Part shown: piece by piece, positions 2,556 through 21,211 of the stretch
Layout of the letters: each line of letters starts with the position of its first letter
How positions within the stretch are numbered: the first letter of the stretch is position 1
From: a virus
Length of the DNA: 21,530 bases
Virus record (IMG/VR): IMGVR_UViG_3300025674_007832
Location: 1-21,530 of that record
Strand: one strand, 5' to 3'
The notes under the pieces: generated by a model
The model's input: only the letters and a program-made list of their open reading frames with translations
What the model was told of the DNA's origin: nothing
Database searches by the model: none
Program-made: the position numbers and the translations under genes

Positions 2556-2674
2556 CAAAATACGCCAGGAATAATTTGACCAGTAGTGAGATAGGTGCCT
2601 ACCATAACCACAAACGCCACCATAGCAATTTTTCCATTAAGTGCTTCTGCTTGTTCAGTCCATCCAAATTTCAT
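2555..2674 (-). CDS. hli: high-light-inducible protein, 39 aa (Hli)
   Basis: A very short Hli protein starting MKFGWTEQAEALNGKIAMVAFVV. The chlorophyll a/b-binding-like helix with the ExxNGKxAM signature is clear, followed by TGQIIPG. Hli proteins sit in thylakoids, bind pigments and protect photosystems from excess light; cyanophages commonly carry them. The ATG at 2674 has AGGAG about eight bases upstream. That ribosome site and the first 20 bases of the gene lie inside the end of the upstream endonuclease gene (stop at 2655), an unusual overlap. The stop overlaps the peroxiredoxin start by one base. Confidence 0.93.
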   Translation of the reverse strand: MKFGWTEQAEALNGKIAMVAFVVMVGTYLTTGQIIPGVF

Positions 2675-3188
2675 TTTTTTTCTCCTGCAATAGTTGTTTA
2701 AAATTAAAAGTGATTTTTTCCAATTCTTCAACAGTAGCATCATTTTTAATTTGATTTGCTCTGTGAGAAATTACCCATATGTTATCTTTAGTATAACCTT
2801 TAGTTGAATCAATTCTATCTAAAGATGGGGCATCATAATGTCTATCTCTTGTGGAATGCTTAATTAAGGGTATTTCTAAAAGAGGACAAACATTTGGAAT
2901 TTTAATATCAGATAATTCTATATTGAAATCCCATCCTTTTTTAATGGACCTTTCTTGTGCAGATTTCCACATTCTATATTCAATTGTATGAGAAAGACCG
3001 TTTGCTTTCTTGCGAATGCAACCGCAAGATTTTACTTTATTGTGAAATATATCAGAAGGTTCTCTTCTAATTTCTCCACCACATTCGCATTTGCAAACAC
3101 ATATCTTTCTCTTTCTTTTATCTTTTTGTCTATCAAATCCAACAACTGTAAGCATATTGAATTTGTCACCGATTTTTATATTTAACAT
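2655..3188 (-). CDS. free-standing homing endonuclease, HNH/endonuclease VII-like
   Basis: A 177-aa protein with an N-terminal domain beginning IGDKFNMLTVVGFDR. It has a Cys cluster (C30, C32, C34, C36, then SCGC at 54-57) typical of phage endonucleases with a small zinc module. The catalytic region is CPLLEIPL (101-108) followed by SLDRIDSTKGYTKDNIWVIS and RANQIKNDAT, the His-Me finger pattern shared with T4 endonuclease VII-type homing enzymes. The known free-standing psbA-targeting enzyme F-CphI of S-PM2 belongs to that class from memory; relation to this protein is untested. The gene interrupts the photosynthesis cassette and its 3' end overlaps the downstream hli. A late promoter embedded in a hairpin that hides the AGGA ribosome site precedes it (3189-3238). 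Its target is unknown. Confidence 0.88.
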   Translation of the reverse strand: MLNIKIGDKFNMLTVVGFDRQKDKRKRKICVCKCECGGEIRREPSDIFHNKVKSCGCIRKKANGLSHTIEYRMWKSAQERSIKKGWDFNIELSDIKIPNVCPLLEIPLIKHSTRDRHYDAPSLDRIDSTKGYTKDNIWVISHRANQIKNDATVEELEKITFNFKQLLQEKKNEIWMD

Positions 3189-3238
3189 TTTATTTTCCTA
3201 TGATACTATAATATTATTTATAATGATAGGAAAATAAA
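3189..3238 (-). promoter_or_regulatory. late promoter inside a hairpin that sequesters the endonuclease start
   Basis: A perfect 13-bp inverted repeat (3189-3201 with 3226-3238) surrounds a 24-base loop. On the minus strand the second arm contains AGGA seven bases before the ATG at 3188, so a read-through transcript from the upstream petF unit would hide the ribosome site. The loop carries the late element TATAAATA (3222-3215). A transcript started there (about 3210) lacks the first arm and would leave the site free. T4 I-TevI is controlled in this way. The arrangement is seen directly; the control is inferred. Confidence 0.8.
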
Positions 3239-3241
3239 GTA

Positions 3242-3403
3242 TTATTTTTTCTCCCTTTTAGTAATGTTTTGAATTACAATAAATTTATCTTTAGGTAAAG
3301 TACCTGCAACACAAACTTTGAGTTCATCATCGTTAGTCCAGGCACCAGATTCGACAAGTTCTTGGAGAGCAAGTCCAAGTTGTCCTAACATATCAGCACT
3401 CAC
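3242..3403 (-). CDS. 53-aa hypothetical protein downstream of petF
   Basis: A 53-aa protein starting at GTG 3403 ([20 protein letters not shown]...) and ending NITKREKK. The GTG overlaps the petF stop by four bases (GTGA), with AGGAAG about eight bases upstream, which decides this start over the internal ATG. The sequence suggests an amphipathic N-terminal helix and a short beta-rich second half ([18 protein letters not shown]). No family recognised. Tight coupling to petF suggests it is co-expressed with the ferredoxin in the photosynthesis cassette. Confidence 0.75.
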
Positions 3404-3693
3404 AGATTCTCTTCCTGCTCAGTAAGAATCACACAGTCGCTGGTGGGATATGCCACACAAGTTAGTACCCAACCATCGGCAATCTGGTCATCATCAAGGA
3501 AAGATTGTTCCTCATTATCTACAGTGCCAGAAATGAGTTTGCCCGCACAAGCAGAACAAGCACCCGCTTTACATGAAGAAGGAAGGTCAACACCTGCTTC
3601 TTCTGCTGCTTCCAGAATGTACTGGTCATCAGCACATTCAATAGTGTTTTCAGTGCCGTCAGGATTTTGAAGAGTGATATTAAAAGTAGTCAT
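3400..3693 (-). CDS. petF: plant-type [2Fe-2S] ferredoxin (PetF)
   Basis: A 97-aa ferredoxin with the full plant-type iron-sulfur motif: C41, C46 and C49 in [14 protein letters not shown] and C79 in WVLTCVAYP. Length and the usual features ([26 protein letters not shown]) match cyanobacterial PetF, which takes electrons from photosystem I and passes them to ferredoxin-NADP reductase, bilin reductases and thioredoxin reductase. In phages it may supply reducing power for nucleotide or bilin synthesis. The ATG at 3693 overlaps the stop of the preceding 28-aa gene (TAATG), and a sigma70-like promoter lies inside that small gene. Confidence 0.97.
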
Positions 3694-3779
3694 TAGTAAG
3701 TGTCACAGATTTTTTCAACAGATGCTGCCAACAAAACGAAGAAGGCAACGGATGTTATTGTAAACAAAAGTGAAGTCAT
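3693..3779 (-). CDS. 28-aa single-span membrane peptide
   Basis: A 28-codon frame ([17 protein letters not shown]...KICDTY) from the ATG at 3779. Residues about 3-20 form a hydrophobic helix, followed by a short polar tail with one Cys. It exactly fills the gap between hli and petF and its stop overlaps the petF ATG by one base (TAATG), which argues for a translated gene. Size and form recall small photosystem or cytochrome b6f subunits, but I cannot match it to one. There is no clear Shine-Dalgarno. Confidence 0.65.
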
Positions 3780-3785
3780 TGTCAA
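3757..3785 (-). promoter_or_regulatory. internal sigma70-like promoter upstream of petF
   Basis: On the minus strand TTGACA (3785-3780) and TACAAT (3762-3757) are 17 bp apart. The -35 ends one base before the ATG of the 28-aa gene and the -10 lies within it, so this promoter would give petF its own early transcript. Confidence 0.6.
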
Positions 3786-4027: not shown

Positions 4028-4056
4028 ATTATATAGGAAATCTAAAGGGATGTCAA
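4028..4056 (-). promoter_or_regulatory. consensus early promoter of the hli-petF-prx unit
   Basis: On the minus strand TTGACA (4056-4051) and TATAAT (4033-4028) are both perfect and separated by 17 bp. The start would fall near 4021, about 20 bases before the hli ATG. Confidence 0.85.
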
Positions 4057-20641: not shown

Positions 20642-20722
20642 GGAGAATAATAGAATCGAACTATCAGGTGTTACCCTGGCATCGTTTTCAAGACGATTTA
20701 CCGACCATCGGTGCTATTCTCC
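20642..20722 (-). tRNA. tRNA-Ser(UGA)
   Basis: An 81-nt class II tRNA on the minus strand. Acceptor GGAGAAT (20722-20716) pairs with ATTCTCC (20648-20642), the discriminator is G (20641). The anticodon stem ATCGT/ACGAT encloses CTTGAAA, giving anticodon UGA, which reads UCA. A long variable arm follows, then T stem GATAG/CTATT with the canonical loop TTCGATT. CCA is not encoded. Its first nine bases overlap the end of the HNH endonuclease gene. T4-like cyanophages often carry a few tRNAs that suit their AT-rich codons. Confidence 0.93.
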
Positions 20723-21169
20723 ATATTTTGAATAACCTAAATGTTTTGTGTAATGGCAATTAGGACATAATAGTTGTAGATTATTATCATCATTTGTTCC
20801 ACCATTACATCTTTCTATTATGTGATGAATTTGAAGAATACTATAATTTTCATTACCACATTCTTCACAAGTACCACCTCTAATTTTAGAAAGATTTTCT
20901 TTTAAAATTTTTGTTTTATTAGCATTATTCTTTTTATTTAATCCATCATATTTTATTCCATATCTACTTTTATTTGAGCAAGTTCTGGAACAAGTTTTTG
21001 AATTACCAAAAATTATTTTACCACAAATAGGGCAAGATTTTTCATTTTTTCTACTATGTTTTCCAGTACAAGTTGTACTACAAAATACTAAACCATTTTC
21101 TATTTGATTTGGTCTCCTATAAATTTCCTTACCACAATAAGTACAAGAACAATTTGGATTTCTAGGCAT
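20714..21169 (-). CDS. free-standing HNH endonuclease next to tRNA-Ser
   Basis: A 151-aa endonuclease. Two N-terminal zinc-finger-like units are seen: CSCTYCGKEIYRRPNQI...FCSTTC (C9/C12, C30/C34) and CPICGKIIFG...CSRTC. The HNH domain is at the C-terminus: CEECG (101-105), LQIHHIIERCNGGTNDDNN (112-130) and LLCPNCHYTKH (134-143), with H115/H116, N130 and H139, and the four Cys that hold its zinc. The last codons GGA GAA TAG are the first nine bases of tRNA-Ser, so the gene ends in the acceptor stem. It probably acts as a homing endonuclease, perhaps cutting phages that lack the insert. A late promoter within a hairpin precedes it. Confidence 0.9.
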   Translation of the reverse strand: MPRNPNCSCTYCGKEIYRRPNQIENGLVFCSTTCTGKHSRKNEKSCPICGKIIFGNSKTCSRTCSNKSRYGIKYDGLNKKNNANKTKILKENLSKIRGGTCEECGNENYSILQIHHIIERCNGGTNDDNNLQLLCPNCHYTKHLGYSKYGE

Positions 21170-21173
21170 AGTG

Positions 21174-21211
21174 GTTTATCAGTATCTTATGAAATATTTA
21201 TACAGATAAAC
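21174..21211 (-). promoter_or_regulatory. late promoter inside a hairpin upstream of the HNH gene
   Basis: A stem of 7 bp, one mismatch and 4 bp (21174-21185 with 21200-21211) has a 14-base loop. The late element TATAAATA (21202-21195, minus strand) spans the first arm and the loop. The second arm ends five bases before the ATG at 21169. A transcript starting at the late promoter would begin near 21190 and lack the first arm. The same logic is seen at 3189-3238. Confidence 0.65.

Follow-up and report, generated by a model that had tools for sequence, protein, structure and literature searches.

A hairpin enclosing a late promoter motif before an endonuclease-type gene in a cyanophage photosynthesis cassette, and related leaders in other cyanophages

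An arrangement in which a promoter is combined with a hairpin that hides the ribosome-binding site (RBS) has been described for I-TevI, I-TevII and I-TevIII, for segB of phage T4 and for mobE of Aeromonas phage Aeh1 (PMC2988022). In the three I-Tev genes, the RBS is held in a stem of the early read-through RNA, while the promoter's own transcript lacks the 5′ arm (PMC2988022). Cyanophages possess homologues of g33, g45 and g55, together with the late promoter motif NATAAATA (PMC2984593). In cyanophage S-PM2, the psbA leader combines a hairpin with a gp55-type motif and has been discussed for light response (PMC5931967), and an antisense RNA, CfrI, has been reported for F-CphI, the endonuclease gene downstream of psbA (PMC2984593, PMC5931967). 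A literature search that covered few subscription papers yielded no earlier account of late hairpins that hide the RBS of cyanophage endonuclease genes.

Here we analyze a leader located in a 21,530-nt stretch of viral DNA (the window), which belongs to a T4-like cyanophage whose nearest isolate is the freshwater Synechococcus phage S-SRM01. The preliminary description of this locus had named I-TevI as its precedent; the predicted kind of control is the same, but the closest precedents also include the free-standing genes segB and mobE (PMC2988022). The window shares with the I-Tev genes an RBS predicted to lie in a stem of read-through RNA and a promoter whose transcript would lack the 5′ arm. 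However, those genes are intron-encoded and reside in coliphage nucleotide-metabolism genes, whereas the window gene is free-standing, stands beside petF and hli, and differs in both protein and stem sequence. SegB and mobE are free-standing as well, and in these endonuclease genes the promoter and the hairpin that hides the RBS are similarly arranged (PMC2988022), but they belong to other nuclease families, hosts and gene contexts, and the window is known from sequence only. F-CphI resembles the window gene as a cyanophage endonuclease close to photosynthesis genes and carries TATAAATA at −31, but it encodes an EndoVII-type protein and lacks an RBS-hiding stem, its late motif being immediately preceded by an intrinsic terminator. 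The mechanism is thus already known from T4 (I-TevI, segB) and Aeh1 (mobE), of which the window is probably a further case. What appears to be new is how general it is among cyanophages, where it is found beside photosynthesis genes and where F-CphI-type genes are preceded by a different insulator, a terminator plus a late promoter.

The cassette lies on the minus strand, in the order hli, small ORF, petF, ORF of 49–53 aa, endonuclease, second hli, peroxiredoxin and split psbA. The gene petF (3400–3693), encoding a 2Fe-2S ferredoxin, is the upstream gene of a presumed early unit. It is followed by the ORF of 53 aa from a GTG, or 49 aa from the likely ATG (3242–3403), a homologue of the ORF found between petF and hli in phage DSL-LC02. 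Directly downstream of the endonuclease gene is hli (2555–2674), which encodes a high-light-inducible protein and whose Shine-Dalgarno sequence overlaps the last codons of the endonuclease gene, as is also the case in two close relatives (L004 and L005). We found two sigma70-like promoters on the same strand, TTGACA-17-TATAAT (12/12; 4028–4056) upstream of the first hli and TTGACA-17-TACAAT (11/12; 3757–3785) upstream of petF. Since no terminator was called between them and the endonuclease gene on that strand, early read-through into the gene is plausible. The endonuclease is present or absent at one site among related genomes: in S-SRM01, petF and hli are 16 nt apart without it, and in DSL-LC02 it is missing from a row formed by petF, the small ORF homologue and hli; both are empty sites. 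The psbA gene (about 1–1613) is itself interrupted by an intron-like insert that contains an HNH-type endonuclease ORF of its own (407–1108; phrog_655), the same arrangement as in S-SRM01 gp319–321.

The free-standing gene at 2655–3188 encodes a 177-aa protein that matches the endonuclease family phrog_3322 (E 9e-31) and the HNH family phrog_374 (E 3e-16). No Pfam family, HNH included, matched it at E 0.1, and Endonuclease_7 (PF02945), which F-CphI does match, gave no match; a sequence-profile search of solved structures returned nothing. An AlphaFold2 model built from 17 relatives (mean pLDDT 87.5) had PacI, an HNH restriction enzyme, as its closest match, with a Foldseek probability of 0.97 but an E value of 0.02. 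We treat the protein as a putative HNH-related, homing-type endonuclease, which may have homing activity.

The hairpin before this gene spans 3189–3238 on the minus strand and, exactly as preliminarily described, has perfect 13-bp arms. The 5′ arm TTTATTTTCCTAT (3226–3238), absent from the predicted late RNA, pairs with the 3′ arm ATAGGAAAATAAA (3189–3201), whose last base directly precedes the ATG; between them lies a 24-nt loop with an inner weak stem (3202–3225). With mismatches allowed, the inverted repeat reaches 22 nt at 86%. The Shine-Dalgarno AGGA (3199–3196) stands 7 nt from the ATG (3188–3186), and we could verify to the base that it falls within the 3′ arm together with everything up to that ATG. 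The T4/cyanophage late (gp55-type) promoter motif (PMC2984593), in the form TATAAATA, was located in the loop, at 3222–3215, where it had been placed. If the motif lies at −13 to −6, as in T4, the predicted late +1 is 3209, also inside the loop, in agreement with the late start near 3210 proposed earlier.

It had further been claimed that the start of the gene would be folded away when the RNA reads through from upstream and would be accessible in late RNA, and predicted folding bears this out. The mean unpaired probability of AGGA is predicted to be 0.00 in a 460-nt read-through RNA and 0.77 in the late-start RNA, and that of the region from −16 to +3 to be 0.22 and 0.76, respectively. We consider it quite probable that the leader acts as a translational switch gated for late expression, of the I-TevI/segB/mobE type. 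In such a switch, read-through RNA from the early hli-petF unit would fold the leader so that pairing covers AGGA and everything from there to the AUG, and the endonuclease would remain untranslated. Late in infection, gp55-type polymerase would initiate within the loop, near 3209; the resulting RNA, without the 5′ arm, would form no hairpin, allowing translation of the endonuclease. Because the stop codon of the small ORF immediately precedes the perfect 5′ arm, a ribosome terminating there might briefly open the hairpin.

The hairpin is not a product of chance. Its fold, predicted like all stem energies here at 37 °C for AT-rich RNA, reaches −17.9 kcal/mol (z −5.0), a value equaled by 0 of 200 shuffles; in its 141-nt context z is −2.1, and 6 shuffles were equally good. 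Since the 80-nt leader is only 17.5% GC, we conditioned a further test on leader composition: a 13-bp stem ending at the ATG occurred in 3 of 20,000 dinucleotide shuffles of the leader, and such a stem with the late motif inside in 2 of 20,000. Perfect 13-bp repeats with a short loop occur once in the whole window and were missing from 18 of 20 shuffled windows. The motif TATAAATA is by itself not rare, with 3 occurrences in the window and 3.5 expected; what is unusual about it is its location and the accompanying stem. A stem of this kind could also be a transcription terminator or an RNA processing or stability element instead of hiding the RBS, given that F-CphI-type genes do carry a terminator just before the late motif and that a 36-bp inverted repeat in the S-PM2 psbA leader has been proposed to act on the mRNA (PMC5931967). 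In the window, however, the AT-rich stem of the coding strand is followed by ATGTTAAATA and by no U-run, no terminator is called there, and the position of the stem is tied to the ATG rather than to a 3′ end. The missing U-run rules out termination by this hairpin, and we regard the explanation as a whole, processing and stability included, as very unlikely.

The preliminary description had also suggested looking for the same repeat in related phages, where we found the arms, the loop motif and their position to be kept, while the sequence of the stem changes. A search of viral contigs for the core hairpin sequence returned two close relatives and two unrelated loci (L027 and L028), and no others. 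The proteins of the close relatives, L004 and L005, are 80–84% identical in amino acids, and they share an ungapped 34-nt leader core that contains CTAAATA; in L004, 12 bases of this core are paired, whereas the window has inner mismatches there and eight extra outer pairs. Since the hairpin, late motif and gene are found together in these close relatives, they probably move as one unit. At greater distance, S-SKS1 SWZG_00023 and the RB11-B endonuclease are homologous (35–44% amino acid identity) and have a stem, a late motif in the loop and the ATG in register, although their stem sequences are unrelated to that of the window and the S-SKS1 copy follows psbA. These two and many IMG/VR relatives carry TATAAATA or CTAAATA about 18–36 nt before the ATG, and their starts are covered by stems of unrelated sequence. 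Comparison of these leaders thus points to a conserved architecture and not to a conserved hairpin sequence.

Within the family, the late motif precedes 31 of the 34 genes located beside psbA or hli, compared with 7 of 42 other members, and at least 4 of those 7 are cyanophage-type too (L024, L030, L031 and L190). The relatives display two geometries, with the promoter either in the loop or just before a short stem, and in both of them a late start would cut away all or part of the 5′ arm. For six leaders (L034, L036, L048, L057, L069 and L190), long-range pairing was no better than in swapped controls; one of them, L048, has a local stem that the predicted late start would cut. Several psbA-linked relatives display sigma70-like −35/−10 elements around the 5′ arm, from which an arm-less RNA would be produced early as well. 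In three relatives (L030, L031 and L033), the gene sits in an hli cassette of this same kind but at a different junction, in front of the small ORF, which suggests that photosynthesis cassettes have been invaded repeatedly; most others lie after psbA.

To assess pairing across the family, we used 24 non-redundant leaders, picked by protein homology and motif only, and paired the pre-start segment of each with the post-start segment of every other. The leaders' own pairing sums to −350.5 kcal/mol, compared with −192.9 (sd 14.0) after permutation; the best of 20,000 permutations reached −261.2, so that p equals its floor of 5e-5, and 18 of the 24 leaders individually beat at least 95% of swaps. 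In a subfamily alignment of 8 leaders (7 distinct), from which the window itself is excluded, 6 of 16 pairs have changes on both sides, and 87% of cells are paired in register compared with 31–46% in slid registers. Double-change cells number 11 as against 4.3 after shuffling (0 of 500), a figure that is not to be taken as a probability, because the related rows are so few. A MAFFT alignment of the window with the leaders of L030–L033 was too gapped for pair counts and was not used. Compensation among relatives, visible in both the swap test and the double changes, keeps the pairing, which argues for RNA pairing over a conserved DNA site.

Such a DNA site would be expected if the dyad were an operator, to which the endonuclease would bind over its own late promoter so as to repress itself like I-TevI, the RNA folding being incidental. 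Operators that overlie the promoter are known for I-TevI and probable for I-TevII and I-TevIII (PMC2988022), and a dimeric binder would naturally use an inverted repeat around a promoter. Against this, the stems of homologues differ completely in sequence while their complementarity remains, the same layout occurs in unrelated nuclease families, and the 3′ arm regularly stops at the ATG or close to it, as an RNA mechanism requires. We find an operator in place of RNA gating unlikely; by analogy with I-TevI, both layers could coexist.

To determine how general such leaders are, we surveyed the complete genomes of cyanophages S-SKS1, S-PM2, DSL-LC02, S-SRM01 and RB11-B. Endonuclease-type genes were listed by domain or homology, independently of their leaders, with two exceptions that leaders had prompted, namely one GIY-YIG query (S-SRM01 77663) and the NUMOD searches. 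A gating stem was defined as a duplex of ≤ −12 kcal/mol with z ≤ −3, and the late motif was counted at −40 to −17. In a first count of 24 genes, before the NUMOD additions, the motif was enriched (19/24 vs 167/1889; p 7e-16), while enrichment of the stem was weak (p 0.01–0.02), since the highest-ranking ORFs counted as “non-endonuclease” proved to be GIY-YIG/NUMOD3 genes that PF01541 had not detected. We reclassified these by NUMOD3 or NUMOD-like domains and homology and reran the test. Across the five genomes, the late motif then preceded 25 of 32 endonuclease-type genes and 158 of 1878 other ORFs (p 1e-20), and the gating stem 9 of 32 and 0 of 1878 (p 3e-17), counts that leave out three strong-stem ORFs that are endonuclease-like by eye or by weak match. 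The nine gated genes include HNH, EndoVII-like and GIY-YIG/NUMOD3 types. To judge from these leaders, the predicted gate is not peculiar to the photosynthesis cassette and is common to many cyanophage endonuclease genes.

These counts also bear on the possibility that the late promoter alone matters, driving late transcription of the endonuclease gene together with hli, peroxiredoxin and psbA downstream of it, with the hairpin as an AT-rich by-product. The motif is indeed the most general feature, some leaders have it without a strong stem, and late RNA from 3209 would continue into hli. However, the stems outperform AT-matched shuffles and swaps and they covary, and the 158 other ORFs with the same motif have no strong stem, making this explanation quite unlikely.

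A strong terminator followed at once or shortly after by the late motif was found before F-CphI of S-PM2, its S-SRM01 counterpart and one S-SKS1 EndoVII gene. Such a terminator with a late promoter is a second way of insulating a gene from psbA read-through. The succession of a terminator and TATAAATA at −31 to −34 is seen in L124 (3585–3685; S-PM2 F-CphI), L001 (1153–1250) and L122 (26588–26690). We think it somewhat likely that most mobile endonuclease genes of T4-like cyanophages, across unrelated nuclease families, carry a sequence-independent late-gated leader, either a promoter placed in a hairpin that hides the RBS or a late promoter joined to a terminator, and can in this way invade photosynthesis operons without being co-expressed. 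If so, the early-silent, late-on solution of T4 and Aeh1 would be a usual means by which selfish endonucleases persist within important phage operons, and gating would extend to cyanophages of marine and fresh waters, which are abundant and whose photosynthesis genes are of ecological importance. The leaders, which follow a common rule with unrelated stems, offer a large natural set for testing promoter-in-hairpin gating, and a late motif with a paired start is a signature for finding mobile endonuclease genes missed by Pfam.

Other leaders combine these elements differently. A second HNH endonuclease gene in the window, HEG2 (20714–21169, minus strand), has its own late motif, TATAAATA at −33 (21195–21202), inside a weak 7-bp stem (arms 21205–21211 and 21174–21180; leader 21170–21211). 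In its relatives L110–L113, ATAAACCACTATG is kept and the other arm varies, and three members of this family (L111, L113 and L114) display little gating. In S-SRM01, five plus-strand leaders (18053, 48536, 51348, 56059 and 192520) have a long outer stem, within which lie a terminator-like hairpin and the late motif; the 3′ arm of these composite leaders stops several nucleotides short of the ATG, and hiding of the RBS would be partial at most. The gp4-like gene of S-SRM01 (22597–23037, minus strand) and a NUMOD-like ORF of S-SKS1 (189209–189547, plus strand) have a common leader sequence and both begin with MSYKG, which would fit the capture of a gp4 leader by an endonuclease gene. In RB11-B (PV261925), a terminator-like hairpin and its U-run abut the ATG of an EndoVII-type gene (28648–29091, minus strand), with TTAAATA upstream.
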